Of a DNA stretch of 56,583 nt, positions 2,622 through 44,041 are shown in pieces. This DNA comes from Candidatus Kuenenia stuttgartensis (lineage in GTDB: Bacteria; Planctomycetota; Planctomycetia; Planctomycetales; Planctomycetaceae). The translations under genes were made by a program, and so were the position numbers. The notes below the pieces were generated by a model, which saw only the letters and a program-made list of their open reading frames with translations, did not search any database and was not told the origin of the DNA. The stretch spans positions 1-56,583 of the forward strand of contig CAMAWN010000012.1 in the NCBI GenBank assembly GCA_945861865.1, given 5' to 3'. How positions within the stretch are numbered: position 1 is the stretch's first letter; each line of letters opens with the position of its first letter.

Positions 2622-3260
2622 ATGACACCGTTGCTGATTCTTGTTGGCGCGTATCTCGCCGGCTCGCTGCCGTTCGGGCTGATCGTCGCGCGAGTCGCCA
2701 AAGGGATCGACATCCGCGAGCACGGCAGCAAGAACATCGGAGCCACGAACGTCACGCGCGTTCTCGGAGCCAAATGGGGCGCGTTGTGCTTCGTTCTTGA
2801 CGTGCTCAAAGGAGCGTTGCCAGTCGCGCTGCCCAAGTGGCTGTTCGCGTTGGATGATCCGAATCGCGGCCATTGGCTTGTTGCCGCCGGATTGCTGGCG
2901 ATCCTCGGACACATGTTCCCGATCTGGCTCGGCTTTCACGGCGGCAAGGGAGTCGCAACGGCCTTGGGAGTCGTCGTCGTGTTGGCGAATCCGATCTCGA
3001 CGGTGATCACATTCGGAGCATTCGTCGTCTGCTTTGCTGCGACGAAGATTGTGTCGATCAGCTCGATCACTGCCGCGGTGACGTTCGTCGTGGCCCAGAT
3101 GTACTTTCTATGGCCGCAACCATTCCGCGCGGAGACTTGGAGCATCGCCAGCTTCAGCCTGGCGGTGCCGACGCTCATCATCGTCAAGCACCGCAGCAAC
3201 ATTGTGCGCCTGCTGCGTGGCGAAGAACTTCGTTTTGGCCGCAAGCCACCGCAGTTGTAG
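2622..3260 (+). CDS. plsY: Glycerol-3-phosphate acyltransferase PlsY
   Basis: Integral membrane enzyme that transfers the acyl group of acyl-phosphate to sn-glycerol-3-phosphate, giving lysophosphatidic acid, the first step of phospholipid synthesis. At 212 aa it matches the family. The conserved loops are visible: GSLPFG near the N-terminus, GSKNIGATNVTR around residues 35-46, and GFHGGKGVATALG around residues 105-117. Several hydrophobic segments span the chain. The ATG is 5 bp after the topA stop, so the two genes are probably co-transcribed. Its TAG stop (3258-3260) is part of the palindromic repeat that begins at 3257, so the repeat supplies the stop codon. Confidence 0.96.
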   Translation: MTPLLILVGAYLAGSLPFGLIVARVAKGIDIREHGSKNIGATNVTRVLGAKWGALCFVLDVLKGALPVALPKWLFALDDPNRGHWLVAAGLLAILGHMFPIWLGFHGGKGVATALGVVVVLANPISTVITFGAFVVCFAATKIVSISSITAAVTFVVAQMYFLWPQPFRAETWSIASFSLAVPTLIIVKHRSNIVRLLRGEELRFGRKPPQL

Positions 3261-3283
3261 GTTGGGACTCCATCCCAACCTAC
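3257..3283. repeat. GTAG-headed palindrome at the plsY stop codon
   Basis: Perfect inverted repeat with 11-base arms, GTAGGTTGGGA (3257-3267) and TCCCAACCTAC (3273-3283), around the loop CTCCA. The TAG of the first arm is the plsY stop codon. It lies between two convergent transcription units and could fold in either transcript, although no T-tract follows. The GTAG head resembles that of REP elements. Confidence 0.85.
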
Positions 3284-3287
3284 GGAC

Positions 3288-3563
3288 TCAGCGGACTTCG
3301 ACCTCGTTGGTCAGCGACGGCTCGCTGGCGGCATCGAGAGCAGCGTGAGTGGCAAGCTGCTTGTTGTCGTACGTCGAAGTATGCCCGAGGAGGATGACTT
3401 CACCTGCGGACACCTCGACGTGCGGGCTGCGAATCGTGCCGCCAGTGAGTCCCGATCGACAGGGTGTTGGTTCGGGATGTGCCGCGATCTTGCGCCAGAG
3501 TTCGCAGATCGTCTCGGTGTTGACCACCGTGGTATTGGTCACGGCCACCTGCGTGCGCGTCAC
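3288..3563 (-). CDS. Small hypothetical protein coupled to comF
   Basis: Unknown 91-residue protein. I place the start at a GTG (3561-3563) that overlaps the comF stop as GTGA, a typical translational-coupling arrangement. The reading frame is also open upstream, but that part overlaps comF and looks like a shadow with low-complexity Arg/Gly. From the GTG the product reads as an ordinary soluble protein, with VTNTTVVNTETICELWRKI near the start, no signal peptide and no membrane segment. No family is recognised. It ends 5 bp from the palindrome at 3257-3283. A longer start at 3641 or a non-coding shadow are the alternatives. Confidence 0.5.
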   Translation of the reverse strand: MTRTQVAVTNTTVVNTETICELWRKIAAHPEPTPCRSGLTGGTIRSPHVEVSAGEVILLGHTSTYDNKQLATHAALDAASEPSLTNEVEVR

Positions 3564-4363
3564 CGCGAGTTCGGCGGCACGACAGCGACCACGGCCACGA
3601 TCACCTTCGCGACCCCCGCGTGGAGCAACGCTCGCGTGCATTCGTTGGCGGTGGTCCCGGTCGTCAGGATGTCATCGACCAACAGCACTGTCTTGCCAAC
3701 CAGCAACCGAGGACGCGATCGAACGGCAAAGGCCTCTTTCAAATTGAGCTTGCGATGCGCCGCCGTCAAATCGGATTGATCCGGCGTCCATTTGATTTTG
3801 CGGAGCAGTCCGCGGCCGTGAGGCTTTCCCAACCGCCGAGCCAACACGCGCGAAATGGTCTCAGCCGCGTGATGCGGTTTCACCAGTCGCCGAGTCCAAT
3901 GTCGAGGAACCGGAACGATCACATCAATTCGTTCCGCGTCTAGTTCCTCCTGCTCCTGCAACCACATCAAATTGGCGAGAGCTGCGGCCAACGGAGATTG
4001 GGTGGTTCCCTTCGCTCGAATGCACGCGGTCCTCAACAGGTTGTCATACAGACCCACGCGGATGACTCGGCGAAAGCGAAACTTCTGAGACCGACAATGC
4101 GGACAGCCGTCATCGATCAGTGCGTGGGGGCCGACCAGCAACCCGCAACGCAAGCAACAGCGACTCGGCGGAGGCAGCATGTCGGCCGAGCAGAGGTCAC
4201 ACAGCACCGGAGCAATCGACCGGCCGAGGTCAACCCGCTCGTGGAGTTCAACATCTCGATGACACAGCGGACACGACGGCGGAAAAACAAAACGAAAGGC
4301 CGCTCGACCCAGTTGGGTGAGCGGCCAGATGCTTCGACGGATGAGCCGCTGTGTGTCGCTCAT
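3560..4363 (-). CDS. comF: ComF-family phosphoribosyltransferase-like protein
   Basis: Member of the ComF/GntX family, linked to natural transformation in other bacteria and built on a type I phosphoribosyltransferase fold. At 267 aa, the N-terminal part holds four Cys pairs (CPLC, CDLC, CCLRC, CPHC) that look like a zinc-binding module. The C-terminal part has the PRPP-loop motif VLLVDDILTTGTTANEC. The ATG overlaps the stop of the upstream SMP-30-like gene as ATGA, and its own stop overlaps the start of the following small gene, so it sits in a coupled operon. The substrate is unknown for this family in planctomycetes. Confidence 0.9.
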   Translation of the reverse strand: MSDTQRLIRRSIWPLTQLGRAAFRFVFPPSCPLCHRDVELHERVDLGRSIAPVLCDLCSADMLPPPSRCCLRCGLLVGPHALIDDGCPHCRSQKFRFRRVIRVGLYDNLLRTACIRAKGTTQSPLAAALANLMWLQEQEELDAERIDVIVPVPRHWTRRLVKPHHAAETISRVLARRLGKPHGRGLLRKIKWTPDQSDLTAAHRKLNLKEAFAVRSRPRLLVGKTVLLVDDILTTGTTANECTRALLHAGVAKVIVAVVAVVPPNSR

Positions 4364-5418
4364 TTCTTGGCGAACTGCACGTGAAAGCCTTTGACCTTCA
4401 GCGCGATGCGGGACAGGCTCGTGTCGATCGTCACGTACAAGACATTCGCTTCGTCACCAATCCCGAACTCGACGTTGCTGGGCTTGCCGACCGCCGAGTC
4501 GTCCGGCTGATTCGGAGCACCCGTCGGAATGAACGCGACTTCTTTGCCGCTGGGATCAATGACCAACACGCCCGGCCGCTTGATGCCGCGAGACGTCAAA
4601 TAGACGTTCCCCTTCTCGTCCACCGTCATGCCGTCGCAGCCCGCTTGATCTCCGAAGTCGTAGATCGTCTTGCGAGCGCCGCCAACCTTGCCGTCGGCAT
4701 CCAGCGGGAAAGCGTAAATCTTCATCGCTCCCGGTTTCGCCTTCTCGTCCGAGCCGATGCGATCCGTGCCGTTATCGTGATCGGCGAGATACATCGTCTT
4801 GCCATCGGGGCTGAGCGCGATCCCGTTCGGCTTGCCGACGTTGTGAGTGATCTCCAGGACCGTGCCGTCGCGGTCGATGCGGTACACAGAACGATGTTCG
4901 AGTTCGCGCGGTTCGGCCCCGACATATTTCGGATCGGTGAAATAAATTCGACCGAGCCGATCGACACAGATGTCATTCGGTGCGTTAAATTTATTCCCTT
5001 GGAATCGATCCACCAGCACGGTTCGCTTGCCGGTCTTCAAATCCCAGCGAGACACACCGCGGCCTCCGAAGTCGGAGCCTTCCGCCGCCAGTAATCGTCC
5101 TTCCGAGTCGCAAATCAGCCCGTTGGACTTGTGGCTATCCTCGGCAAACACGGTCGTCTTTTTCGTCTTCGGATCGAACCGCAGGATCATCCCGTTGTCC
5201 TTGCCCATCGGAATGTCCGAGAAATAAATCGACCCATCCGGCGCGACGGCCGGCCCCTCGGTCAGCCCGCCTTCGATCTTCGCGGTGCGAGTGAAAAGGT
5301 GTTCGAGCTTCGCATCGGGCGAGACAATCGCCTCGCCGGTCGGCTTCGGAAAATCCGCCGCGCTGGCGACGGCCAGTTGGATCGAACACAGACCGATCGC
5401 CCACAGCCAACGATTCAT
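4360..5418 (-). CDS. SMP-30/gluconolactonase-like secreted beta-propeller
   Basis: Probable secreted lactonase or related beta-propeller of the SMP-30/gluconolaconase/LRE-like family. The first 20 residues (MNRWLWAIGL then hydrophobic, ending ASAA) form a Sec signal peptide. Propeller hallmarks follow: EGPAVAPDGSIYFSD around residue 55, SNGLICDSEGRLL, NAPNDICVDRLGRIYFTD, and KPNGIALSPDGKTMYLAD. These Glu, Asn and Asp positions form the metal site in characterised members. The start has an excellent ribosome binding site (GGGAGGC, 4 bases before ATG). It ends as an ATGA overlap with comF. The sugar lactone substrate cannot be told from sequence. Confidence 0.9.
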   Translation of the reverse strand: MNRWLWAIGLCSIQLAVASAADFPKPTGEAIVSPDAKLEHLFTRTAKIEGGLTEGPAVAPDGSIYFSDIPMGKDNGMILRFDPKTKKTTVFAEDSHKSNGLICDSEGRLLAAEGSDFGGRGVSRWDLKTGKRTVLVDRFQGNKFNAPNDICVDRLGRIYFTDPKYVGAEPRELEHRSVYRIDRDGTVLEITHNVGKPNGIALSPDGKTMYLADHDNGTDRIGSDEKAKPGAMKIYAFPLDADGKVGGARKTIYDFGDQAGCDGMTVDEKGNVYLTSRGIKRPGVLVIDPSGKEVAFIPTGAPNQPDDSAVGKPSNVEFGIGDEANVLYVTIDTSLSRIALKVKGFHVQFAKK

Positions 5419-5479
5419 GATTGCCTCCCAAGTTCATGCGGAATCCGGAAACAAAGCCGGACAGCAAGCTATCGCCGAT

Positions 5480-6790
5480 TCAACGCCCCGACAATGAACC
5501 GCCAGCGACGGCCAGCAACCGAATCGGTCGATCAGAAACACCCCGCTGATTGGCCAAGTGATGCAGCCACACCACGAAACCGGTTTGCGGATGGAAGTGC
5601 AACTCGTGCAAAGCACGTTGCGTTCGATTGCCGAGCTTCATCGCGTCGTGTTCGGTGGGAAGTTGGAAAAAAGTGTGCAGTTGAAAACTCGTCGCGCCGC
5701 GCAGGAGGTATTCAACCGCCATGCGTCCGGTCGTGATATTCCCGGTCGCCGACCACGGCAGCGGCCCACCAGCACGACGCGCCAGCGAGTGGTCGGATTC
5801 GGACGCGGCGCTCAACCCCTCGCTAGCGCGTCGGGCTAAGGCTCGCCATTGATCGAGCACTCGCAGATTGCGATCGCTCAAGTCTGGTCCACCGAACGCA
5901 ACGCCGCGCTGGCCATCGAATTCACGGTTTGGATCAAATAGCCGATTCGCGTAGATGAAAAAGTCCGGCCGATCAGCAGCCGTCCCGTGAATCGCCTCGA
6001 GCATCTCCAACTGAAAGCGGTCGTCGAATAGGGCGTTGAACAGCTTCATGCCGACGCGAACTTGACCGAGACCACTCCGCGCCGCCGAGTCACGCACGAG
6101 CTTCGGGACGACTCGCAGCCATTCGAGAATCTTCGCCTGCGTCGCCGCTCGGTCGCTACCCGCCAGAGTCGGGCTGAAATCTTTTTCGAGCGGCATTGGA
6201 CTCGCGTCCGGCTGCCAAGCCTCCAACATCTTCGCAGTGGTGAAGTCATATTCGCCGACTCGCCACTCAGCTTCATTGGGCGACGGCAAATGATATTTGC
6301 ACGACGGGACGATCAGTGTGCCGGTGCCGTCGGCGATCCGCCGCGCATCGCGGATCAACTGCAAGTACGCCTCGAACGGCTGCCACCAGCCGCGGCCCTT
6401 CCAAGTGATCGTCCAGCCCGGCTCGCCCGATTGTCCGACAATCGGCTCCGCAACCATGCGAGCTTCGGGGATCGCCCACGCGGCCATCGACTGGCCACCC
6501 TGCTCGTCCTGCGCGATCACCGTTTTGAGCACGACAAAACCGAGTCCGGCGGCAACGTCCTCTTCGACTTGCCGAGTCGTCATCGACAACTGACCAGACG
6601 CCTTGCCCCACGGGTTCTTGATCAGAAACCCCGCGTACTCCGCCGTCACGTCGAGGTCGTATTCGTCCAGCAGATACTGCTCGGGCGACGTCGGCCACCC
6701 TTCCGTCCTGAAGCGTTCGTAGTCGCGTTGGACTCGTTGACGCACCGAGTCAGGCGCGGCGAGCGGTTCCGTGGTGTCGAGACGCGACAT
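5480..6790 (-). CDS. Dihydroorotate-dehydrogenase-like protein with an embedded palindrome
   Basis: TIM-barrel flavoprotein related to dihydroorotate dehydrogenase. From the chosen ATG (6788-6790) it is 436 aa. Visible motifs are FLIKNPWGKASGQLSM near residue 55, VVLKTVIAQDEQGG, KLFNALFDD, IYANRLFD, and the C-terminal ATGNITTGRMAVEYLLRGA, which fits the phosphate-binding end of such barrels. It is longer than typical dihydroorotate dehydrogenases, partly because residues about 318-340 (ARRASEGLSAASESDHSLARR) are encoded by a palindromic repeat at 5772-5835. The frame is open further upstream, but that would overlap the fur-like gene; the chosen start leaves a 22-bp gap. A true pyrimidine role is unproven: it could act on another substrate. 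Confidence 0.82.
   Translation of the reverse strand: MSRLDTTEPLAAPDSVRQRVQRDYERFRTEGWPTSPEQYLLDEYDLDVTAEYAGFLIKNPWGKASGQLSMTTRQVEEDVAAGLGFVVLKTVIAQDEQGGQSMAAWAIPEARMVAEPIVGQSGEPGWTITWKGRGWWQPFEAYLQLIRDARRIADGTGTLIVPSCKYHLPSPNEAEWRVGEYDFTTAKMLEAWQPDASPMPLEKDFSPTLAGSDRAATQAKILEWLRVVPKLVRDSAARSGLGQVRVGMKLFNALFDDRFQLEMLEAIHGTAADRPDFFIYANRLFDPNREFDGQRGVAFGGPDLSDRNLRVLDQWRALARRASEGLSAASESDHSLARRAGGPLPWSATGNITTGRMAVEYLLRGATSFQLHTFFQLPTEHDAMKLGNRTQRALHELHFHPQTGFVVWLHHLANQRGVSDRPIRLLAVAGGSLSGR
5772..5835. repeat. Palindromic repeat embedded in the DHOD-like gene
   Basis: Imperfect inverted repeat with arms of about 21 bases, 18 matching: GCACGACGCGCCAGCGAGTGG (5772-5792, shown only for pairing) and the reverse complement of the stretch ending CGCGTCGGGC near 5835. 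The sequence between the arms keeps the reading frame open. On the minus strand it opens TTAGCCCGACGCG. Confidence 0.75.
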
Positions 6791-6812
6791 GATCAGCTCT
6801 CGGCCGGAGAGG

Positions 6813-7289
6813 TCAGACCAAATCCAATTTGCGATGGCGACGATTCGGCGGAGCGTTGCACTTCGCACAGGTGCCGTACACTTCCAGCCGATGGCCACTT
6901 TTGATGAAGCCGTGCTGGTTGCAGACTTTGTCCACGAGTGCAGAGATCGCTTCGTTGGTGAACTCGATCAGTGTGCCGCACTTCGCACAAATCAGGTGGT
7001 CGTGCTGAGGGTAGCCGTAGTCGTGCTCGTAGACTTCGCTGCCATTGGGCCGCGCGACTTTGCGGAGCAAACCCGCCTCTTCCAGCAACTTGAGCGCGCG
7101 ATACACGGTCGCTCGACTGACGCGCCGGCCGGACTTGTCGCGAGCGACCTTCGCGATCAGATCCTCGGCATCGAAGTGTTCGTGCTGAGCAAACACCTCT
7201 TCGATGATGATCGACCGCTCACGAGTCAGCCGCTCCCCCTTCGTCAGCAGAAACTCGCGAAACTTTTCGATGGGAGTCAATTCACCCAC
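6813..7289 (-). CDS. Fur-family metal-responsive transcriptional regulator
   Basis: DNA-binding repressor of the Fur superfamily. From the GTG at 7287-7289 it is 158 aa, the usual length. That start has a good ribosome binding site (GAGGTG, 6 bases upstream); an ATG further upstream would extend the protein through repeat DNA. The winged helix is at residues about 15-85 (LTRERSIIIEEVFAQHEHFD, then RVSRATVYRALKLLEEAGLL). The dimerisation part has HDHLICAKCG and a second CAKC pair near the end, giving the structural zinc site. The C-terminus is basic (RRHRKLDLV). Iron, zinc or peroxide sensing cannot be separated by eye. It is transcribed towards the DHOD-like gene. Confidence 0.93.
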   Translation of the reverse strand: MGELTPIEKFREFLLTKGERLTRERSIIIEEVFAQHEHFDAEDLIAKVARDKSGRRVSRATVYRALKLLEEAGLLRKVARPNGSEVYEHDYGYPQHDHLICAKCGTLIEFTNEAISALVDKVCNQHGFIKSGHRLEVYGTCAKCNAPPNRRHRKLDLV

Positions 7290-7318
7290 AAAACACCTCG
7301 ACGTTGAAGCCAGCCAAT

Positions 7319-7343
7319 TCGCCTCGCAGAGCGAGGCGACTAC
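7319..7343. repeat. GTAG-type palindrome upstream of the fur-like gene
   Basis: Perfect 9-base arms TCGCCTCGC (7319-7327) and GCGAGGCGA (7331-7339) around AGA, followed by CTAC. On the minus strand it therefore reads GTAG plus hairpin, the REP layout. It lies 30 bp upstream of the fur-like start, inside its leader. Confidence 0.8.
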
Positions 7344-7358
7344 GTTCGCCAAAAGATA

Positions 7359-7415
7359 GCGGGCCGTGGAACTTGGCAACATCGACCGGCGATGATGCCA
7401 AGTTTCACGGCCCGC
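7359..7415. repeat. Second palindrome in the flgM-fur spacer
   Basis: Inverted repeat with 20-base arms and one mismatch: GCGGGCCGTGGAACTTGGCA (7359-7378) and TGCCAAGTTTCACGGCCCGC (7396-7415), separated by 17 bases. Its sequence is unrelated to its two palindromic neighbours. Confidence 0.85.
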
Positions 7416-7421
7416 GAATTC

Positions 7422-7480
7422 GTGGGGCAGGTTTTCAACCTGCCAGCCGATTTGTCAGTCAGGTTGAAAACCTGCCCCAC
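7422..7480. repeat. Third palindrome, just after the flgM-like stop
   Basis: Perfect inverted repeat with 21-base arms (7422-7442 and 7460-7480); the core of each arm, GGCAGGTTTTCAACCTGCC, is itself palindromic. It begins two bases after the flgM-like TAA stop (7483-7485), so it would fold at the 3' end of that transcript. There is no T-run, so a factor-independent terminator is not proven. A second copy of the same family is at 17795-17852. Confidence 0.9.
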
Positions 7481-7482
7481 GG

Positions 7483-7785
7483 TTACGCTTCCAAATCGAT
7501 TCCATTGCTGTCGAACATCTTCAGCAGCGCGGCTTCGAGTTTGGCGTCGGTGTCGTAGGTACCGGCGTCGATCTCGGCCTTGATGCGAGCCAACCGTTCG
7601 GCGCGTTGAGCGGCTTCGGTTCCTTCGGTCAGCTTGCCTATCAATTGGCCGGCGGCGGAGAGTTCGACTTCGTCTTGCGGCACTTCCAACGGTGACTTGC
7701 TGGCGGCAGCCGTCGGGCCGGTTGCCGGACGGGCTCCTTGGAGGGGGGTCGCATTGGGGACGAATCCAGGGCCTCGGACTTCCAT
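7483..7785 (-). CDS. flgM: FlgM-like flagellar anti-sigma factor
   Basis: Likely anti-sigma-28 factor that holds the flagellar sigma factor until hook completion. The 100-aa product starts MEVRGPGF, has a flexible Pro/Ala/Thr stretch, then the family's C-terminal half: DEVELSAAGQLIGKL, RAERLARIKAEIDAGTYDTD, and KLEAALLKMF. The internal ATG at 7783-7785 has a textbook ribosome binding site (AAGGAGG, 6 bases away) and gives the length normal for planctomycete FlgM. The frame stays open to an ATG at 7984-7986 that also has a GAGGA site, giving a 167-aa form; I prefer the short form. No other flagellar gene lies in the window. Confidence 0.8.
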   Translation of the reverse strand: MEVRGPGFVPNATPLQGARPATGPTAAASKSPLEVPQDEVELSAAGQLIGKLTEGTEAAQRAERLARIKAEIDAGTYDTDAKLEAALLKMFDSNGIDLEA

Positions 7786-8185
7786 CTCGATCCTCCTTGC
7801 CGGACTGGCATCTGGAGATTGATTGCGGCGGCGACGGCGAGAACGGGCATCATCCTTCTCAGGCTGATCCGTCCGCAGGGTGTCGTCACCGTGGGGAGAA
7901 TGGGCGGCATGGTATCGCAGATTGGAAAAACGGTTCAACGGGGCTTCTGGGATCCCCGGCTCAATTGGCTCCGACTCGAATGACATGTTGAATCCTCAAA
8001 GATTGCGGAGACCAACGATCGGGACCGGTCTCGGTCGTAACGTTCCTTGCGAATCGTTCCGTATCCGACGGACGTGGCCCGGTCGCGGCCTCACACGAGG
8101 TATCGTCTGCGGCAAAATCCGCCGATGAGCCGGCTATGGCCGATCCTGTCAAACTTTGAGGGCGCGCGGTTCGTCACGCAGTTTC

Positions 8186-8214
8186 TGCCGGTTACGCCGC
8201 AACCGGCATTTTTT
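8186..8214 (+). terminator. Rho-independent terminator-like hairpin in the tolC leader
   Basis: Perfect stem TGCCGGTT (8186-8193) with AACCGGCA (8201-8208) around ACGCCGC, followed at once by TTTTTT (8209-8214). It points along the plus strand, yet no plus-strand gene lies upstream. It could end antisense transcription from the flgM side or act as an attenuator in the leader of the tolC-like gene. Confidence 0.65.
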
Positions 8215-8311
8215 CTCCGCTCGCCCCTCGTCCCTCACTCCTCTCCCCTCGCCCCTTTGGCAGACTAGCCAAAGATTGCGGATTGCGTCGCCGATACCAC
8301 TTGTGAGGGTC

Positions 8312-8333
8312 GTAGCGCCGGTCTGCGCCGGCG
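8312..8333 (+). repeat. GTAG-headed hairpin before the tolC-like gene
   Basis: GTAG (8312-8315) followed by CGCCGG, a 6-base loop and CCGGCG. It has the REP-like layout and lies 41 bp before the tolC-like start. Confidence 0.55.
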
Positions 8334-8374
8334 TTGTCCCAGCCGCGAGAGCGTTCTCGAATAAGGTGGCCGGC

Positions 8375-10441
8375 ATGTCAATTTCCAATTCTCAGGCGAC
8401 ACGACTTCGCCGGTTCGGCAGTGCGAGCCGGCGACTTTTGCAGCGTCTCGCCGTTGGCTCGGTTCTGGGAACGTCGTTGTTGGGCTGTGCGACCGATCCG
8501 AAACTGAAATATCTCGGCGATGACAAAGAGCTGAGCTACTACAAGACCGCCGCTACGACAATCGACTACCCGGCCGTCGACACGCAGACCTCCCAAGAAG
8601 CCGCCTACGCCAAACGTCCGCGCACCGTGTTCGATCGCGAAAAGGAAGAGGTCTGGGAAATCTCGCTGAGCCAAGCGATTCAACTGGCGATCCAAAACAA
8701 CAGCATCATCCGCTCGCGAACCGTTGCGGGTGCGCCCTCGACGATTCTTAGCAGCGCGGATCGAGCGCCATCGTCATACGATCCGGCGATCCAAGAAACC
8801 GGCGTGCTGTTCGGAGGACGAGGCATCTCTGGAGCACTGGCAGCGTTCGACGCTCAGTTTCAGACGTCGATGACATTCGGCCAGTCCAAGCTTCCCGTCA
8901 ACCTGGGGGCTACACCGGTTCGCCGAGACACGGACTCTGGGCTACTCGATACCAGCTTGTCCAAGACGTTCGGCTACGGCGGGTCGATCGCGCTGAGCCA
9001 CTCGATGAGTTACGCGGGCGTCGATCCGAATACGGCATTGGCGATTGGCAACTCGTACTCCGGCAACGTCCGGGCGGAGTATCGCCAACCATTGTGGGCC
9101 GGTGCGGGCGCGGAGTTCACACGCATCGCGGGACCGATCTCGCAGAGCTTCGGTGGACTGAGCGGCGTTAATCAGGGCGTCGTGATTGCACGAATCAACC
9201 AGGACATCACGCTGGCGGACTTCGAGGCGAGCGTCCTGTTGATGCTCAAAGATGTCGAAGATTTGTACTGGGAGCTGTACCTTCGGTATCGCGAATACGA
9301 CACGGCGGTGACGAATCGGAACAGTGCTTTGCAGTCGTGGCGCGAGGCTCATCGGATTCTCGAAGCGGGAGGCAAGCCAGGCTTCAAACCTTCCGACGAG
9401 GCGCAGGCGCGAGACTTTTATTTCCAGAGCCGCTCGCTGGCCGAGACAGCGCTGTCAAACATTTACTCTGCGGAGATTGCTTTGCGGCGCATCGTCGGTT
9501 TGTCGGTCAATGACGGCCGCATGATGCGTCCCAGCGATGAGCCGACCACGGCCGCGTTCCATCCAAGCTGGGAAATATCACTGACCGAAGCCCTGACACA
9601 ACGCGTCGAACTGCGCCGTCAGAAATGGAACATCAAAAGCCTGGAGTTGCAGTTGTGCGCGGCCGAGAGCCTCACGAATCCACGGCTCGATTTCGTTTCA
9701 GGCGCTCAAGCCGACGGTCTCGGTCACGGCCTGTTTGGAGATGGAACTGGACCGTTGCCCGGCGCTTTTAGGACCGCCTATGGTTCGATCGCGAGCGGCA
9801 ATTTCCCCGGCTGGGACTTGGGACTCGAGTTCACAATGCCTCTGGGATTTCGAGCCGCTCATGCTCAGGTCCGCAACGTCGAATTGCGATTGGCGAAGGC
9901 TCGCGACATGTTGCAGGCTCAGGAGATCGACATCAGCCATGAGGTCGCTCAGGACTTCCAGAACATCGCGGTGCAGTACACGACCGCGCAGTCGAACTTC
10001 AATCGCTTCCGCGCCGCTCGAGAGCGCGTGCAACTCTTCCGTGCCGAAGTCGAAGCGGGAACGAAGACCTTCGACGTGCTACTGCGAGCGCTCGGCAGTC
10101 AGGCCGAAGCCGAAGTCGCCTACTACCGCAGCTTGACCGAATACAACAAGGCCATCGTCGCGTTGCACTACCACAAGGGAACGCTGCTGCCTTACGACGA
10201 CGTCTGGCTCGGCGAAAGCGACTGGACGCCGGAAGCGTACCGCGACTCGTTACGTCAGGCGTGGGCGAGAACTCACGGCCGTGACGCGCCGCATCTTGAC
10301 ACCAAACCGGCCGAGTTCGTCGCTCAACCTAGCTGGCACGCTCAGGAGTACGCGGCTCCGAACAGCACGCCGCCGGAACCCACCGCGCCCTACGAAACCG
10401 AAGTCGAGTTGCCGCCGCGACCAGTCCCGGCCGCGAAGTAG
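8375..10441 (+). CDS. TolC/OprM-type outer-membrane efflux lipoprotein
   Basis: Outer-membrane channel of the outer-membrane-factor family, the exit duct of tripartite efflux or type I secretion. From the ATG at 8375 it is 688 aa. The first 40 residues form a basic then hydrophobic signal ending in a lipobox (SLLGC), so it is probably lipidated as in OprM. Long amphipathic helical stretches typical of outer-membrane efflux proteins follow, for example ISLSQAIQLAIQNNS near residue 95 and AQARDFYFQSRSLAET, with the second half containing EVEAGTKTFDVLLRALGSQ. The C-terminus ends in a Pro-rich tail. The start has AAGGTGG about 6 bases upstream. No inner-membrane pump or adaptor lies next to it. 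Its TAG stop is part of the repeat at 10438. Confidence 0.88.
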   Translation: MSISNSQATRLRRFGSASRRLLQRLAVGSVLGTSLLGCATDPKLKYLGDDKELSYYKTAATTIDYPAVDTQTSQEAAYAKRPRTVFDREKEEVWEISLSQAIQLAIQNNSIIRSRTVAGAPSTILSSADRAPSSYDPAIQETGVLFGGRGISGALAAFDAQFQTSMTFGQSKLPVNLGATPVRRDTDSGLLDTSLSKTFGYGGSIALSHSMSYAGVDPNTALAIGNSYSGNVRAEYRQPLWAGAGAEFTRIAGPISQSFGGLSGVNQGVVIARINQDITLADFEASVLLMLKDVEDLYWELYLRYREYDTAVTNRNSALQSWREAHRILEAGGKPGFKPSDEAQARDFYFQSRSLAETALSNIYSAEIALRRIVGLSVNDGRMMRPSDEPTTAAFHPSWEISLTEALTQRVELRRQKWNIKSLELQLCAAESLTNPRLDFVSGAQADGLGHGLFGDGTGPLPGAFRTAYGSIASGNFPGWDLGLEFTMPLGFRAAHAQVRNVELRLAKARDMLQAQEIDISHEVAQDFQNIAVQYTTAQSNFNRFRAARERVQLFRAEVEAGTKTFDVLLRALGSQAEAEVAYYRSLTEYNKAIVALHYHKGTLLPYDDVWLGESDWTPEAYRDSLRQAWARTHGRDAPHLDTKPAEFVAQPSWHAQEYAAPNSTPPEPTAPYETEVELPPRPVPAAK

Positions 10442-10515
10442 CCCAAGCCCTTGTGGCCTGGGTGATTTCACTGCGATGCAACAAGAATCGACCGACCCAC
10501 AAGGGGTTGGGCTAC
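10438..10515. repeat. GTAG-headed palindrome at the tolC-like stop codon
   Basis: Inverted repeat with 19-base arms and one mismatch: GTAGCCCAAGCCCTTGTGG (10438-10456) and CCACAAGGGGTTGGGCTAC (10497-10515). The TAG at 10439-10441 is the stop codon of the upstream gene. It lies between convergent genes. A related copy is at 38849-38915. Confidence 0.85.
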
Positions 10516-10542
10516 AGTGCGAGATCGTTGTGCCGCGTCCGA

Positions 10543-17774: not shown

Positions 17775-17794
17775 CGAGACCTCCGTGCTCTGAC

Positions 17795-17852
17795 GTGGGG
17801 CAGGTTTTCAACCTGCCCGCCTTGAAACGGCCGATTGAAAACCTGCCCCGCG
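17795..17852. repeat. Palindrome between gltA and the MscS gene
   Basis: Same family as 7422-7480: left arm GTGGGGCAGGTTTTCAA (17795-17811), right arm TTGAAAACCTGCCCCGC (17836-17852), one mismatch. It begins one base after the gltA TAG stop (17854-17856, minus strand). Confidence 0.85.
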
Positions 17853-34234: not shown

Positions 34235-34242
34235 GAGCTGCC

Positions 34243-35845: not shown

Positions 35846-35860
35846 TTCGCGGTCATCGGC

Positions 35861-36853: not shown

Positions 36854-37010
36854 GTGCTCGAACCTTCCTTGGCCAACTTGCCCGGCTTGCCTCGGCGCGC
36901 CACTGGCGGCAGAGACTCAGCCGACACCGATACCACCTTCTTGATCGGCAAGCTCTTCCCAGCATCCGCATGGAAACTCGGCGGCGAAATCTGCGCGAGG
37001 CATAAGCAGG

Positions 37011-37033
37011 ACGGGCAAGAGTGCCCATCCTAC
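37011..37033. repeat. Half-copy of the GTAG palindrome at a stop codon
   Basis: A single arm of the repeat seen in full at 43974-44041: ACGGGCAAGAGTGCCCATCC followed by TAC. Its minus-strand TAG (37030-37032) is the stop codon of the 37030-37734 gene. The second arm is absent here. Confidence 0.75.
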
Positions 37034-37734
37034 TTGCGTTTGCCGAAGTTCGGCCGGTCCAGGATCAGGTTCAGCACGAAAGCCTCTTTGAGGCTCGCGG
37101 GATCGCGCATCATTTTGGCGACGCTTAACGCGGTCGCGGTCTGACGAGCGGAAGTCACCGTGGCAGCCGTGCCGGCCGGATTGACACCCGTCAATGATCC
37201 GAAATCCTGCTGAACCTTCTCGGACACGCCATGCGCCAGGTGATTCTGAGCTTGTTGCAGGACGCGGCCCTCCTGCATGTGCTCGGCGAGGTGCTCCCGC
37301 ATGCCAGAACCAAGATTCGTCGTACCCGGTCCTTTCCGCTGCGCGATGCGGCCACCGGGACGAACGTCGCCGGGGCCTTCGGATTCTTCCAACTTGGGAG
37401 CAGCGGCCGCGCGCTTGCGCTTGGCCACCTCGGCTTTCGATCGAGGTGTTTGCCGGCGACGAGGCTTCTCATTCTCATCCTCGACGACGAGCACTTCCAA
37501 CTCTTCCTGTGAACCCTGCTTCTGACCCATCACATTTTTGAGGAAGCGGTTGATCTCGGCTTGCAGTTCATTCTCGATCTTTTTGCCGCCCACCTGAGGT
37601 TGCGGTCGGCCAGCACCCGGTAGGTTTTGATTGCCGTTGAAGACATTCCACAGCCAACTGATGATCGCAATCACCATAAACAGCAGCGAGATCGTCCCCC
37701 CTACTGCCGCCAGGACGGGGTTCCGATTGAACAT
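37030..37734 (-). CDS. Hypothetical membrane-anchored protein
   Basis: 234-aa protein from the ATG at 37732-37734. One N-terminal membrane segment (AAVGGTISLLFMVIAIISWLW) is followed by a low-complexity, highly charged region with RRRQTPRSKAEVAKRKRAAA and then a helical part, LAEHMQEGRVLQQAQNHLAH, ending RDPASLKEAFVLNLILDRP. The C-terminal piece is the only region that looks conserved. Downstream of floA, separated from it by a palindrome, so co-transcription with floA-nfeD is possible. No family is recognised. Its TAG stop belongs to the repeat arm at 37011-37033. Confidence 0.75.
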   Translation of the reverse strand: MFNRNPVLAAVGGTISLLFMVIAIISWLWNVFNGNQNLPGAGRPQPQVGGKKIENELQAEINRFLKNVMGQKQGSQEELEVLVVEDENEKPRRRQTPRSKAEVAKRKRAAAAPKLEESEGPGDVRPGGRIAQRKGPGTTNLGSGMREHLAEHMQEGRVLQQAQNHLAHGVSEKVQQDFGSLTGVNPAGTAATVTSARQTATALSVAKMMRDPASLKEAFVLNLILDRPNFGKRK

Positions 37735-37761
37735 GACGATCCGCCTTTCGACGTTCACTGG

Positions 37762-37786
37762 TGCCACGGCTGACACAGCCGTGGCG
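37762..37786. repeat. Short palindrome after floA
   Basis: TGCCACGGCTG (37762-37772), ACA, and CAGCCGTGGCG (37776-37786): ten pairs plus one mismatch. It lies between floA and the next gene, 4 bp from the floA TAG stop (37791-37793). Confidence 0.75.
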
Positions 37787-37790
37787 CTCG

Positions 37791-38834: not shown

Positions 38835-38848
38835 GATGGCTTCCAACG

Positions 38849-38915
38849 GTAGCCCGAACCCTTGTGGCTCGGAGGATTTGGTTTTCAATCACCCAAGCCA
38901 CAAGAGCCTAGGCTA
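38849..38915. repeat. GTAG-headed palindrome between nfeD and floA
   Basis: Imperfect inverted repeat of the family at 10438: GTAGCCCGAACCCTTGTGG (38849-38867) and CCACAAGAGCCTAGGCTA (38898-38915). It lies in the floA leader, 15 bp before its start. Confidence 0.7.
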
Positions 38916-38935
38916 TGGGACGAATTGCCGCCGGT

Positions 38936-39526
38936 TTAGCTCTGTCCGAAATCATCGTCAAGCGGCGTGCGTTCGTGCTCGGCGAGTGACTCCTCAGTGG
39001 GTGCCGGTTCCGGCACCGCACTCTCACGCACTTGCCGGACCAACAGACGATTGCCTTTGAGCGCCAGTACGCGCACCGAAGTGTCGGTCAAAATGAACAT
39101 TCCTTCGCTCTCGGCGTGCATCCGCTCACCTTCGACTAGCACCATGCCACCGGGGCCTAGACGAGTCAGCGTGGTCCCGGTTTTGCCGATCAATCGCGTG
39201 AGCCGTTCGGTCTCGGCGACGAACGGTTCCATTTCATCCAAGCTGGGCGGATTCATCAGCCGTCGGCCGTATTCCGTGCGCGGGAAAACGTAAAACGCTC
39301 CTCCCAACACCGACGGAAATAACACGACCAGCGCGGCGATGTAGATCAAAAACAGCGTCAGTTCGCCGGTCTTGAACCAGGCTTGCCACGCGCTCCAGAC
39401 GGAGATCACAAAGATGATGCCGGCCGCCGTCATGATGACGCCGCCGGACGGAATGAAGACCTCGGCAGCCAGCAGCGCCAGACCCAGAGCCAACGTCAGC
39501 ACTGCCATCAACGCGTAACTGTCCAT
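38936..39526 (-). CDS. NfeD-like membrane protein
   Basis: NfeD-family protein, the usual neighbour of floA. From the ATG at 39524-39526 it is 196 aa. N-terminal membrane helices are LMAVLTLALGLALLAAEVFI, SGGVIMTAAGIIFVISVWSA and LIYIAALVVLFPSVLGGAFY. The soluble OB-fold of NfeD lies near residues 105-160 (GKTGTTLTRLGPGGMVLVEG, then RVLALKGNRLLV), followed by an acidic tail. It is 102 bp upstream of floA with a palindrome between. A TTG four codons earlier is an alternative start. Confidence 0.92.
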   Translation of the reverse strand: MDSYALMAVLTLALGLALLAAEVFIPSGGVIMTAAGIIFVISVWSAWQAWFKTGELTLFLIYIAALVVLFPSVLGGAFYVFPRTEYGRRLMNPPSLDEMEPFVAETERLTRLIGKTGTTLTRLGPGGMVLVEGERMHAESEGMFILTDTSVRVLALKGNRLLVRQVRESAVPEPAPTEESLAEHERTPLDDDFGQS

Positions 39527-39635
39527 GACCGACCACAACCTTCACGAGGACACTCATCAGAGACGCGGCGCAGTTTACCGGACCGTGGTGGTCAGACAAG
39601 CTGGCGAGCAAATTCGAGATTGACGACGCTTGTGC

Positions 39636-40298
39636 CTATCGGAGTTTGCCGCGAACAACGCAATCGGTTTCATCCACTTCCACCTCAAAATCACCGTTCA
39701 GCAACCAGTGCCCTTTCGAGGACCGGGAATGTGTCGTCGCATCACGATCCGCTTGTTGCGGCCATAACAGATCACAAACCACCCGCCAGACTTCATCGGC
39801 GTCGGAAGCAGAGTTGATTTTCACCTGTTGTTGCGCGAGCAAAGTTCCCACTTCCTCAAAGTTTCCTTCATCCCGAATCATCAGAGTGTCACCGCTAAGT
39901 CCATCAATCGCCGCCAAATACTTGCGTTGAACGTTGGTCGTGGAATGCCCCGCAGAAATTAGCCTGAATCGCTGACGATGAAACCACGGCACGCGGAAGA
40001 AACGATGGTTCGGGAAAAGGCGTATCAGTCTCGGCGTCGAGATTTCGCGATACGCTTGCGGGGCCGGTTCGACGTACCACCAGAACTCGTCCCGCTCAAA
40101 CGAACTCATCACGCGACGTAACGAAGAGCGTGTTGGCTCCGTCAAATGCAAATGGGCGAGAGGATCGGTCCATCGTCGCCACGTTTGTGCAAGATTTGGT
40201 TGGATTTCCCAAATCAAGAATGCCACTCCAACGGCGAGTATGGGCCATCGTCTTCGGAGTTGGTTCCGCATTCCTTCGTTGAGCCGGCGCCTGCTCAT
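39636..40298 (-). CDS. Hypothetical membrane-anchored protein
   Basis: 220-aa protein whose ATG (40296-40298) overlaps the stop of the FadJ-like gene as ATGA, so it is translationally coupled to it. After an Arg-rich start, one membrane helix (RWPILAVGVAFLIWEIQPN) anchors it. The soluble part includes EFWWYVEPAPQAYREISTPR, FRVPWFHRQRFRLISAGHST and LAAIDGLSGDTLMIRDEGNF, and ends GHWLLNGDFEVEVDETDCVV. No family is recognised. The frame is open far upstream as a shadow of the FadJ-like gene; that part is not used. Confidence 0.7.
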   Translation of the reverse strand: MSRRRLNEGMRNQLRRRWPILAVGVAFLIWEIQPNLAQTWRRWTDPLAHLHLTEPTRSSLRRVMSSFERDEFWWYVEPAPQAYREISTPRLIRLFPNHRFFRVPWFHRQRFRLISAGHSTTNVQRKYLAAIDGLSGDTLMIRDEGNFEEVGTLLAQQQVKINSASDADEVWRVVCDLLWPQQADRDATTHSRSSKGHWLLNGDFEVEVDETDCVVRGKLR

Positions 40299-42433
40299 TG
40301 CTTCGCTCGCGGAAAGAACACTCGCTTCGACGTGATCGATTCCGTCGGTCCGAATCGCTTGCCAAGGTTCGCGTACTTGCCGAGCCGATCGGCGATCGCG
40401 GACGCCCCTTCGGTGTCGCACCAGTGCAGGATGCCGCCGCGGAACGGCGGGAAACCGATCCCCAGGATCAGACCCATGTCGACATGATGCGGTTCGGCGA
40501 CGATCCCTTCTTCGAGCACGCGCGTCGCTTCGAGCAGCATCGGCAGGAACAATCGGTCGGTCAGTTCGTCGAGCGTGAACAGACGGTTGTCCGTGCGGTG
40601 CTGTTCGAGGAACGGCGCGAAGTCCGGATCGGCTTCCGGCTTGCCCTTCTTGTTGAGCTTGCGAAAGCCAGCGCCGCTCTTGTTGCCGAGCCGACCGGCT
40701 TTCACGAGTTCTCCGAGAATCGGCGTCGGCTTCGCGCGATCGGCATACGCCGTCGAGACCACTTGGCCGGCGTAGTACGCGGTGTCCAAGCCGACGAGAT
40801 CGCTGAGCGTGATCGGCCCCATCGGCATACCAAATTTGGTCGCGGCCTTGTCGATGTCGTCCATCGAGGCCCCTTCTTGCAGCAGCAGCACCGCCTCGTT
40901 CATGTACGGCAGCAGCACGCGATTGACCAGGAAGCCGGGGCAGTCCTGCATCACGATCGGCGTTTTGCCGATTCGCTTGGCGAGCGCCACGATCGTCGCG
41001 ACGGTGTCGTCGTCGGTCTTCGCTCCGCGAATGACTTCGACCAATTCCATCCGATCGACCGGATAAAAGAAGTGCATCCCGACGAAGCATTCGGGATGCG
41101 GCGCGGCTTCGGCCATGCGCGTGATCGAGATCGTCGAGGTGTTGCTGCACAGGATCGCGTCGTCGCGGAGCAGCGACTTCAGTTCGCCGTACGCCTGCTT
41201 TTTGAGAGACTCGTTTTCGGTGATCGCCTCGACGACGACATCGGCATCGGAGAAGACCGCTCGCGACGTGGACGTGCTCAATCGCGTGAGCATCTCCTGC
41301 ATGTCTTGCGGAGTCGCTCGTCCGATCTTGATGCGGCCTTCGACGACTTGGCACGCCCGCTTCAAGCCGTCGGCGAGCCGATCCTGTCCGACATCGACCA
41401 TCACCGCCGGCACTCCGCGCCGCGCGTGCGCCGTCGCGATGCCGGCTCCCATCAATCCGCTGCCGAGCACGCCGACACTTTTCACATCGCGCGCCTTCGC
41501 GGTCGCCGGCAAAAATCCCGGATCGCGGCCGAGCGCGTTGTTCATGAAAAAGACCGAGATCAAATTCGACGAGATCGGCGTGCCGGTGACTTCCAGCGCG
41601 ACCTCTTGTTCGATCTTCAAGCCCTCGTCGAGCGGGCGGTTGATCCCCAGCTTGATCGCCTTCAGTGCCGCGAGCGGAGCCGGATACTGCCCCTTCGTTT
41701 TGCCTTTGATCGCTCCCTCGGCGCACGCAAATGCGAAGTTCAATTCGGTTTCGCTGAGCCCCAGCGGCTGTGAGCGACGTTGCCGATTCGACTTCCAATC
41801 GCCAGTCGATTGCACGCGTTCAATCAGCGCCGTGCCGACTTCGATCAGCTTGTCGGAAGGAACCACATCGAAGCAGAGTCCGATCTGCACGGCCTTCGTC
41901 GCCGAGACCGGCTCGCCGCCGCAGATGATTTCAATCGCGTGCTGCACGCCGACCAGCCGAGTCATCCGCTGCGTGCCGCCCCAGCCGGGAATCAAGCCGA
42001 TCTTCGTTTCCGGCAAGGCGATCTTCGTCGCGGGATTCGTCGAAGCGACGCGATAATCCATCGACAGAATCAACTCGGTGCCGCCCCCCATCGAGTTGCC
42101 ATCGACCAGCGCGACCGTCGGAAACGGCAACTGGCTGGCGCGGCTGAACAGCGCGTGCCCCGCGACGATCGCCTGCTGACACTGCTCGCGCGTCGCGTCG
42201 ATCAGCGCGCCGAGTTCATTGAGGTCCGCTCCGGCAATGAACTGCCCTGGCTTGCCACTGCAAAACAGCAAGCCCTTGAGATCCGTCCGCTTCTCAAGTT
42301 GCTCAATCTGCGAGGCTAATTCTGTCAGCACCGCCTGCGACAGTGTGTTGACCTTTTTGTTCGGCACGTCAAACGTCAGCAGTCCGATTGGGCCGGAAGC
42401 GGATGACAACTCTTCAAATCGGAAGAAGCCCAT
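40295..42433 (-). CDS. fadJ: Fused enoyl-CoA hydratase / 3-hydroxyacyl-CoA dehydrogenase
   Basis: Beta-oxidation multifunctional enzyme alpha subunit (FadB/FadJ type) that hydrates enoyl-CoA and oxidises the 3-hydroxyacyl-CoA. The 712-aa chain has a crotonase domain (residues about 1-200: GADLNELGALID, MGGGTELILSMDYRVAS with its Glu, LPETKIGLIPGWGG with the second Glu), then the NAD-binding domain with GSGLMGAGIATAHARRG (about 316) and GMHFFYPVDRMELVEVIRG (catalytic His), and two C-terminal dehydrogenase domains (QDCPGFLVNRVLLPYMNE; LFLPMLLEATRVLEEG). No thiolase partner lies alongside. It is coupled to the next gene. FadB versus FadJ cannot be decided. Confidence 0.93.
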   Translation of the reverse strand: MGFFRFEELSSASGPIGLLTFDVPNKKVNTLSQAVLTELASQIEQLEKRTDLKGLLFCSGKPGQFIAGADLNELGALIDATREQCQQAIVAGHALFSRASQLPFPTVALVDGNSMGGGTELILSMDYRVASTNPATKIALPETKIGLIPGWGGTQRMTRLVGVQHAIEIICGGEPVSATKAVQIGLCFDVVPSDKLIEVGTALIERVQSTGDWKSNRQRRSQPLGLSETELNFAFACAEGAIKGKTKGQYPAPLAALKAIKLGINRPLDEGLKIEQEVALEVTGTPISSNLISVFFMNNALGRDPGFLPATAKARDVKSVGVLGSGLMGAGIATAHARRGVPAVMVDVGQDRLADGLKRACQVVEGRIKIGRATPQDMQEMLTRLSTSTSRAVFSDADVVVEAITENESLKKQAYGELKSLLRDDAILCSNTSTISITRMAEAAPHPECFVGMHFFYPVDRMELVEVIRGAKTDDDTVATIVALAKRIGKTPIVMQDCPGFLVNRVLLPYMNEAVLLLQEGASMDDIDKAATKFGMPMGPITLSDLVGLDTAYYAGQVVSTAYADRAKPTPILGELVKAGRLGNKSGAGFRKLNKKGKPEADPDFAPFLEQHRTDNRLFTLDELTDRLFLPMLLEATRVLEEGIVAEPHHVDMGLILGIGFPPFRGGILHWCDTEGASAIADRLGKYANLGKRFGPTESITSKRVFFPRAKQ

Positions 42434-42594
42434 CGTGAGTCCTGTCGCGAAGCAGAGGCAGTGGGGAGAACTGATTCCAGACGGGGTTGTAGCAAACCCG
42501 TTGTTTGCCAGGGAGCGGATGTTTGTCCTACAAGATCGAGGAGGCCGCGACGAATCCTGGAATCAACGACCGACAACCTCACGGGAGCTTGCTG

Positions 42595-43977
42595 ATGTCC
42601 TCCGAACCGCTGGATGATTTGCGTTCTGATGCTTCCGACGGAGGAGCATCGCGAGTCGGGTCTTGGATCGTGTTCCTGTGTCAGCCGAAGTTTGCGATCC
42701 CGGTGATCGTGATCTTGTTGTTGATCTCCGCTCCGTTGGTCTTTCGCGCCATCCGGTTGTCGCGCGTGCCGCCGGCGGATGAGCCGTTCGACACCAAGTC
42801 CGTGCTGGCGTTCGTGGTCCCCGACGCCGACAACGCTTTCGTCGAATACCGGGCGGCGAGCACCATGTTGGTGTCGCGCGACCCCAAGGCGAATTACGAA
42901 GTGTTTGAAAAAACGCAGTCCGACGGCTGGGAGCACGCAACTGAGCCAGTGCGAAACTGGCTCGACGCAAACCGGCCGTACATGGAACTCGTGCGAAAGG
43001 GAACGGCCAAGTCGGATGCTCAGTCTGTCCGGGCCAGCGAACTTCGCGCTGACACATCGCTGACGTCGGAATTGCAAAACGCGAGAGAATTCTCTCGGCT
43101 CGTGCGGCTGGAGGTGTTGCAGTTGCTCGCCGAAGGCAAGACCGAGGAAGCGTGGAGTTGGCTACTGACCAGCTTTCGCATGAGCCGGCAATTCGGTCGT
43201 CACGGCCCGATGATCGAGCGGCTTGTGGGAATCGGGACGCACGCGGCCACGGCTGAAGGCATGGTGAAATGGGCGAATGACCCGCAAGTGACGACCGAAT
43301 TGTTGCGTCGCGCAATGCGGGACTTGCAACTCGAACAGAAACGGACGCCGCCGCTCTCCGCCTGCTTGCAGACGGAATACCTCTCAGTGATAGCGTCGTG
43401 GAAATCTCTTTGGCCTAGCGGTGTCGAAACGGTGCTGTTCAACGTGACTGGCGAATCGGAACTCAACGAGCGGATCTATCGGCATCTCTTCGCCAACTGG
43501 CTCGCTCAAGCCGATAAGCCTCGGCAACAGCGCACGAAGATTTTGTCTGGACTGTTTGTGTTTGAGTCGGACCCGGCGAGTGCCAAAAGACAACCCTCCG
43601 CCAGCGACGTGAGCGGCTACATTCACCAGTCGGTGATGGCGGCATTGCTCGTTCCGTCCGGTCAACAGTTTTTCATCGCCACCGACCGCGAGGCTGCGCG
43701 AGACACAGTGCTGCTCACCGTGCTGGCACTGGAACTCTTCGCGCGGGAGCACGGGCATTACCCGGAGAAGCTCGATGAGTTGGTCCCCGATTTCTTGCCA
43801 ACCGTTCTCGAAGACACGCATGCGCCGCCGAAGACACCGCTGCGGTATCGGAGAGATGGCGACGAAGCGTTGATCTACGGCGTCGGCGAAAACGGCACGG
43901 ACGATGGCGGCTTATTCGAGAAGGCCGAGGACATCGGCTACCGAATCGGCAAGCCGCGTGTGAAATCGCCGGAGTAG
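42595..43977 (+). CDS. Hypothetical membrane-anchored protein
   Basis: 460-aa protein from the ATG at 42595 (GGGAGC upstream). It has a short cytoplasmic N-terminus, a membrane helix (FAIPVIVILLLISAPLVFRA), a long helical soluble part (VRLEVLQLLAEGKTEEAWSW, AMRDLQLEQKRTPPLSACLQ) and a C-terminal segment like that of planctomycete pseudopilin-type proteins: LALELFAREHGHYPEKLDEL followed by PDFLP and RYRRDGDEALIYGVGENGTD. No catalytic motif is seen. Its TAG stop (43975-43977) lies in the palindrome at 43974. The frame is open upstream, but that part does not look coding. Confidence 0.75.
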   Translation: MSSEPLDDLRSDASDGGASRVGSWIVFLCQPKFAIPVIVILLLISAPLVFRAIRLSRVPPADEPFDTKSVLAFVVPDADNAFVEYRAASTMLVSRDPKANYEVFEKTQSDGWEHATEPVRNWLDANRPYMELVRKGTAKSDAQSVRASELRADTSLTSELQNAREFSRLVRLEVLQLLAEGKTEEAWSWLLTSFRMSRQFGRHGPMIERLVGIGTHAATAEGMVKWANDPQVTTELLRRAMRDLQLEQKRTPPLSACLQTEYLSVIASWKSLWPSGVETVLFNVTGESELNERIYRHLFANWLAQADKPRQQRTKILSGLFVFESDPASAKRQPSASDVSGYIHQSVMAALLVPSGQQFFIATDREAARDTVLLTVLALELFAREHGHYPEKLDELVPDFLPTVLEDTHAPPKTPLRYRRDGDEALIYGVGENGTDDGGLFEKAEDIGYRIGKPRVKSPE

Positions 43978-44041
43978 GATGGGCACTCTTGCCCGTCTCC
44001 TTTTTCACAAGAAGCAAAACGGGCAAGAGTGCCCATCCTAC
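43974..44041. repeat. Perfect GTAG-headed palindrome shared by two convergent stop codons
   Basis: Perfect inverted repeat with 23-base arms (43974-43996 and 44019-44041) around a 22-base A/T-richer loop. Each arm opens GTAGGATGGGC reading inward. The TAG of the left arm (43975-43977) stops the upstream plus-strand gene; the TAG of the right arm on the minus strand (44038-44040) stops yggS. A half-copy is at 37011-37033. Confidence 0.95.

Follow-up and report, generated by a model that had tools for sequence, protein, structure and literature searches.

The window analysed here, a stretch of 56,583 nucleotides, is contig C12 in full, from a draft genome of Candidatus Kuenenia stuttgartensis that totals 6.24 Mb, and the elements under study are palindromes that carry the tetranucleotide GTAG at their feet. 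Our findings confirm that these palindromes supply the stop codons of host genes far above chance, the TAG of the foot being itself the TAG of the gene. An initial annotation, made from the letters of the window, had named five such genes (plsY, a TolC-like gene, the gene at 37030 and the convergent pair ending at 43977 and 44038), and all five donations are present at the named places, each TAG being the foot of a GTAG-tagged palindrome (table 1). The elements had been taken for repetitive extragenic palindromic (REP) elements whose own TAG replaces the stop of a gene; both the kind of element and the idea of replacement are supported by the GTAG foot, the stem-loop, the copies and the overlap with stops. 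Genomes and loci are cited below by our working handles (G and L numbers).

Results

Feet of GTAG Palindromes and Stop Codons

Positions were counted in 60 stretches of 20 kb plus the window (1.257 Mb, 20% of the genome), with 885 genes placed by our own simple gene caller (coding fraction 0.88) and feet placed at a slightly looser threshold. For a gene on the same strand, d is the position of the foot's T relative to the first letter of the stop; a foot with d=0 coincides with the stop, and otherwise d-4 bases separate the two. This sample holds 35 GTAG..CTAC palindromes, about 8 families by eye, and 20 of their 70 feet lie at d=0, against a mean of 0.11 and a maximum of 2 for shifted feet (120 shifts, 1-60 bases either way). 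The overlap is thus about 180 times that at shifted positions, a comparison that the initial annotation had itself proposed as a check. The remaining feet lie at d 1-10 (3), 11-50 (10), 51-200 (2) or farther (27), and 8 have no such gene. The 20 donors are an undercount by at least one, the caller having missed the window gene at 44038; both feet are stops in 5 of the 35 palindromes by the caller, and in 6 when that gene is included. Sister species (326 kb) have 12 of 50 feet at d=0 (shifted mean 0.09, maximum 3), with 2 at d 1-10, 9 at 11-50 and 1 at 51-200; another 20 lie farther off, and 3 fall within a gene, 338-679 bases ahead of the point where it ends. In other Planctomycetota, where feet of the type GTAGGATGGGCACTCTTGCCC were followed, 16 of 129 lie at d=0 (shifted mean 0.275, maximum 4); a same-strand gene exists for 96 of the 129, with 15 feet at d 1-10, 17 at 11-50, 12 at 51-200 and 29 beyond that; another 7 sit far within genes, at least 341 bases before the end. 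A hold-out of one family, taken outside the sampled stretches, places 4 of 16 feet at d=0 and 8 of 16 within 200 bases of a stop. Counted from the stops, an inverted repeat starts exactly 1 base before the stop in 18 of 137 GTAG contexts, 2 of 23 CTAG, 1 of 164 GTGA and 0 of 477 in the other nine contexts. Exact copies of the head of one window hairpin occur at no fewer than 114 loci in Planctomycetota.

Reading Frame and Elements with GTGG Feet

Within 300 bases of a gene end, read-through of an element was seen in none of the three sets, against 20, 12 and 16 stops on a foot (48 in total); in the window's genome the check extended to 400 bases from the gene end, again with none seen. Blind insertion into gene tails would place one third of the feet in frame, an expectation with binomial probabilities of 2.9e-10 (window's genome), 1.9e-6 (sisters) and 2.3e-8 (other Planctomycetota). 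Far from gene ends, elements with an open frame through them do occur (7 of 96 in other Planctomycetota), which shows that read-through is not always excluded. One element head lies inside seemingly the same gene in two metagenome-assembled genomes (L047 and L058), where an open frame reads through it more than 700 bases before the end.

The genomes sampled also hold palindromes of a family with GTGG feet (CGTGGGGCAGGTTTTCAACCTGCC; 168 arms in the window's genome at up to 2 mismatches, 0 for the reversed-pattern control), a foot that contains no stop. None of 53 GTGG feet lies at d=0, and 13 lie at d=3-8, that is, with a gap of at most 4 bases; at d=3, in one case, the stop TAG takes its G from the first base of the foot. 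The others fall at d 21-50 (1), 51-200 (2), farther (27) or more than 100 bases inside a gene (6), 3 have no such gene, and one of the 53 is read through near a gene end, 61 bases before it. A GTGG hold-out (n=21) likewise has 0 at d=0, with 5 at d 5-8, 1 at 11, 3 at 51-200 and 1 read-through. The same looser search returned 195 GTAG feet: 42 at d=0, 7 at 4-10, 7 at 11-20, 12 at 21-50, 4 at 51-200, 93 farther and 7 more than 100 bases inside a gene. GTAG elements are very rare at d 3-8, the strip in which GTGG elements often abut stops.

Orthologous Gene Ends in Sister Species

The search covered eleven further genomes of the genus, and 106 sister ends of 22 donor genes were read; for one of the 22, L016_1338, the fetched loci contained no orthologue. 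A full GTAG palindrome sits on the sister's own stop in 17 and within 60 bases downstream in 7; the other 82 are called element-free in the sense that they gave no hit for a full GTAG..CTAC palindrome; a fragment or a degenerate element is present in some, such as the plsY ends of G009 and G006 (same codon, with a GTAGGATGGGCAC element). GTAG is found in 29 of the 82, of which 20 share the codon and several show part of an element, and the other 53 have another stop or context. Orthologues sharing the TAG without the palindrome, which the initial annotation had offered as grounds for refutation, are thus not the general case. At the same codon, the 41 element-free ends read GTAG (20), GTGA (10), GTAA (4), ATGA (2), CTGA (2) and TTAA, CTAA or CTAG (1 each). 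The exchange is plain in L168_5124, where ISKT is followed by TGA without an element in all 6 fetched sisters and, at the same codon, by TAG with a REPIN (an inverted REP pair) in the window's genome. This gene, together with TGA or TAA at 20 of the 41 same-codon element-free ends, led us to reject, for several loci, the proposal that the pre-existing stop was always TAG.

Gene ends have also moved. The sister's codon is kept in the majority of element-free sisters for 5 of 12 donor genes against 40 of 44 control genes (p 0.0008) or, counted by pairs, which are not independent, in 25 of 52 donor against 102 of 118 control pairs. Among differing ends the window's genome is the shorter in 15 donor pairs and the longer in 7, against 6 and 10 in the controls. 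Ends have moved and stops have been swapped relative to orthologues; in a fair share of the cases, then, the TAG comes from the element itself. One 383-aa gene (L209) has GTAG in all 5 species compared, a pattern that fits a stop of any age.

Orthologous ends vary among sisters in the presence, absence and family of the element, and one codon may be held by different families in different species. At L168_18394 the same codon carries GTAGGATGGGCAC in G006, GTAGGTC.GCC in G005 and G002, and GTAGGTTGGGACTCC in G004 and the window's genome. The codon of the 44038 gene carries GTAGGATGGGCAC in the window's genome with a near copy in G006, GTAGTGACCCG in G007 and GTAGCCCTGTCGC in G005 (the full pair going undetected there), the three sister ends all reading GTAG plus an element sequence at that codon; G004 has TGA. 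For the 37030 gene, G006, G003 and G005 have other families within one codon, and G009 has the same element. Aldolase and DUF1501 ends each bear two or more families at one codon, and in at least one sister each the stop is TGA and element-free.

Identity of the Elements and a Proposed Transposase Link

The palindromes of the window are GTAG REPs and REPINs, of several families in one genome. REPINs, inverted REP pairs that occur in many copies, are presumed to be non-autonomous mobile elements; Bertels and Rainey reportedly treated such pairs in 2011. The assignment rests on features that all fit the description by Di Nocera, De Gregorio and Rocco (2013; PMC3733652): the foot of GTAG, the stem-loop, the pairing in inverted order, the number of copies and where they lie. 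GTAG stands at the foot of a stem-loop of 20-40 nt; 33 of the 35 palindromes exceed 50 bases and read as pairs with a spacer, the other two being single short hairpins (3257-3283 in the window and 9099-9126 in L156); and one GTAG family counts 52 arms genome-wide (at most 1 mismatch) against 0 for the reversed pattern. By a first, laxer rule GTAG was not the commonest foot (GTCG 57, GACG 46, GCAG 36, GTAG 34); with longer arms it leads (48), followed by CGTG (33) and CGTA (22). The initial annotation was right that the sequences belong to several unrelated families, GTAG being by eye their sole common part.

We infer that the elements are mobilised by a REP-associated tyrosine transposase (RAYT). 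The substrate recognised by TnpAREP/RAYT systems, as far as these sources describe it, is likewise GTAG plus a hairpin (PMC8266576, PMC2817692). The window's genome has 3 Y1 transposase matches, 2 of them over the Pfam cut-off; by REP_Tyr_transpos one scores 87.7 bits (cut-off 80), the other two 60.2 and 44, below it. The best of these matches is flanked by a different repeat, GGGTGGCACGCCC (L003, about 1100-1200 and 1900-1990). Of 17 genomes tested, 16 gave a RAYT-like match, which exceeded the cut-off in 13; the sister G003 has a strong one, at 187.9 bits. The exception, G011, is the one member of the genus without a match; several of its gene ends (L181, L216 and L221) hold deleted or mutated remnants, which look as if elements decay after loss of the transposase. 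The G011 genome is 91% complete, and its L211 and L216 still hold full palindromes.

Elements and Genes of the Window

Coordinates are collected in table 1. The four stop-donating elements of the window fold far better than shuffled sequence, and no T run that would mark an intrinsic terminator follows them on the gene strand, read by eye. Ten TAG genes are known in the window (9 called and the missed gene at 44038); GTAG occurs in 6, in 5 of them with an element, the sixth being gene 44542-45939. The palindrome 43974-44041 is the entire intergenic space of a convergent pair and donates both stops; the hairpin at 37006-37033 is near-identical in sequence to its arm. For the 37030 gene the TAG does lie in a GTAG foot, as annotated; the element there is a single hairpin, half of a pair and not a long palindrome. 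The annotated nearness of gltA, floA and flgM to further palindromes holds as a distance (1-5 bases), and these palindromes are of other kinds. The Pfam search gave no family for the genes at 37030 and 42505. An open frame of more than 9 kb (47374-56583) runs off the end of the contig.

Table 1. Palindromic elements of the window and the genes that end at or near them
Feature	Position	Strand	Observations
plsY	2622..3260	+	TAG stop 3258-3260 within GTAG 3257-3260 of element foot; Pfam G3P_acyltransf 4.6e-55
GTAG-footed single hairpin GTAGGTTGGGACTCC...	3257..3283		Perfect arms 11 bp; -17.5 kcal/mol, z -5.2
GTGG-footed palindrome	7421..7481		1 base from flgM stop 7485-7483 (TAA)
Outer membrane efflux (TolC-like) gene	8156..10441	+	TAG stop 10439-10441 in foot; Pfam OEP 1e-21
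REPIN, GTAGCCCAAGCCCTTGTGG family	10438..10515		Inverted pair; -43.8 kcal/mol, z -6.9
Palindrome, feet GTGG (left) and GCGG (right)	17794..17852		1 base from gltA stop 17856-17854 (TAG)
Single REP hairpin GTAGGATGGGCACTCTTGCCCGTCCTGC, 28 nt	37006..37033	-	One half, no inverted pair; 37007-37034 folds at -18.0 kcal/mol, z -5.1
Function-unknown gene	37030..37776	-	TAG stop 37032-37030 inside foot GTAG 37033-37030
Plain 10-bp hairpin	37763-37785		floA stop 5 bases away
Degenerate GTAG REPIN, right foot CTAT	38849..38916		Between NfeD-domain gene and floA; away from any stop
Function-unknown gene	42505..43977	+	TAG stop 43975-43977 in left foot of 43974-44041
REPIN GTAGGATGGGCACTCTTGCCC..., 68 bp	43974..44041		Perfect arms 23 bp; -49.5 and -52.9 kcal/mol
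Ala_racemase_N gene (by name presumably YggS-like)	44038..44763	-	TAG stop 44040-44038 in right foot; Pfam 3.6e-18

Discussion

We propose that stop donors arise through insertion near the 3' ends of genes combined with a filter that retains elements whose TAG falls in frame, a reading to which we assign a probability of roughly two in three. Elements would land near gene 3' ends. Each side of a REPIN presents GTAG to the outside, so that an element inserted at the stop, or a few codons ahead of it, could bring its TAG into frame and end the gene right against a strong hairpin; were it to land in either of the other frames, translation would continue into the element. Selection would remove such read-through insertions and keep those that give prompt termination with the C-terminus nearly intact, after which the element may decay, the TAG often remaining. 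The counts in the wider Planctomycetota, about 2 feet per base at d 4-10 against 16 at d=0, fit a filter of this sort, as if insertions in the last 8 codons or so had collapsed onto the foot.

Several observations count against this proposal. In the genus of the window, 42 feet at d=0 stand against 7 at d=4-10, or one per base; since blind insertion followed by a filter predicts more, the account may have to include a degree of targeting or of adjustment afterwards. In 25 of 52 pairs, about half, the donor gene ends at the sister's codon, which is more exact than blind insertion into tails predicts, and the displacement test covers the 12 donors that passed its filters, out of 20 found with the caller. 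Comparison of flanks for empty sites yielded relics, replacements and short divergent spacers, with no clean insertion junction among the comparisons listed and no direct transposition. None of the three RAYT loci (L002, L003 and L004, one with less than 200 bases on one side) is flanked by a GTAG palindrome, in which the genome differs from the TnpAREP/RAYT systems as described in the sources cited above, and RAYT presence was discarded as a predictor because it does not discriminate: G018 and G024 have a match, and their samples hold no palindrome. In G033 (0.2 Mb; L292-L295 and L300) there are 8 GTAG palindrome hits like GTAGGGGCAATTCATGAATTGCCCCTAC, 2 of them overlapping, and none on a stop, so that this GTAG family departs from the pattern. 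A separate, wider claim, that the elements have left scars throughout the genome, is not made, as G012 (same family, other genus; L282-L291) shows the bias of the window's genome to G before TAG almost without elements, with 1 GTAG palindrome in 0.2 Mb and G before the stop in 23 of 37 TAG, 18 of 23 TAA and 20 of 62 TGA genes. The excess at d=0 may also owe something to GTAG-guided site choice, to families landing again on old scars or to a spacer that was lost once the element was in place.

An unlikely alternative, in our estimate, is that the element reaches the stop by choice of site: the REP transposase would pick its sites by base pairing with the GTAG guide, the stop contexts GTAG, GTGA and GTAA being preferred and new families landing on the GTAG left by older ones. 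Codons held by three families in different sisters (L168_18394 and the 44038 gene), and the two or more families at the aldolase and DUF1501 ends, would be expected under such a choice, as would the G that precedes the stop in 14 of the 21 same-codon element-free sister ends other than GTAG (6 of the 14 from one locus; G makes up 36% of third positions). GTAG has indeed been put forward as the guide for the choice of cleavage site by TnpAREP (PMC8266576); the cleavage sites reported are CT or CA, not GTAG. The ends, moreover, are often displaced (7 of 12 genes), and one target site explains one foot only, whereas both are stops in 5 of the 35 palindromes (6 with the 44038 gene).

More improbable still is that the hairpins are kept as devices of the 3' end, as mRNA stabilisers, ribosome pauses or attenuators, with the flush position selected and the donated stop a by-product. 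The strong folds agree with it, as do the GTGG elements, which cannot donate a stop and also abut stops (13 of 53 feet, gap at most 4 bases), and REPs of Escherichia coli within 15 nt of the stop are reported to stall ribosomes (PMC12306157); however, orthologous ends carry different elements or none, and no single hairpin is conserved at most of the ends compared. That the coincidence is an artefact of gene calling or of chance is next to inconceivable: our gene caller is a simple one and missed a window gene, but stops are set by the reading frame and not by the start it chooses, and the shift controls and conserved orthologues already refute it.

Stop usage offers a further, tentative thought. 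In the window's genome G precedes the stop in 137 of 212 TAG, 164 of 460 TGA and 60 of 129 TAA genes, an excess before TAG that, read as scars, would amount to some 95 of the 801 genes. Elsewhere G precedes TAG in 2 of 14 genes in G033 (8 palindrome hits), 6 of 11 in G018 and 3 of 17 in G024 (none found), and 8 of 25 in G015 (one). It is conceivable, if doubtful, that gene ends in this genus act as reusable docking slots, where unrelated GTAG families take each other's place at one stop codon in different sisters, and that GTAG scars have shifted the stop usage of the genome towards TAG.

Stop donation by GTAG REPs has been known in print since 2013: Di Nocera and colleagues state that the termini "often provide" a TAG stop, there labelled opal (TAG is amber), and likewise report elements deep inside genes with an open frame through them (PMC3733652). 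Their elements resemble those described here in having GTAG at one end, a stem-loop and dimers of opposite orientation, and in lying mostly 3' of genes and between convergent genes, Planctomycetes included. The genome-distribution section of that paper differs in that stop donation is neither counted there nor set against a control, tested for frame or compared between orthologues, and we noticed no naming of this genus's families in the portions available. In the open-licence papers searched we met no work that counts stop donation or tests it by frame or by orthologues, and neither the frame filter, the GTGG contrast nor the reuse of one codon by different families was found in them. Work on REPINs describes the same inverted REP pairs in many copies, the term "stop codon" being absent from the text as available (Genetics 2021, PMC8049555). 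In E. coli, RepRanger places 446 of 4,072 REP hairpins within 15 nt of stops, a comparable nearness, with the difference, on what that article presents, that there the stop lies upstream of the REP and in the planctomycete elements the foot of the REP is itself the stop (PMC12306157).

These findings present a presumed mobile element with a recognition tag that is at the same time a stop codon, by which it can settle where genes are densely packed and leave them intact. The GTAG and GTGG elements of one genome form a natural experiment in which the effect of the TAG can be tested. Codons that carry different families in different species make the target choice of REPs testable by comparison alone, and the observation of 2013 can now be traced by comparison between sister species.

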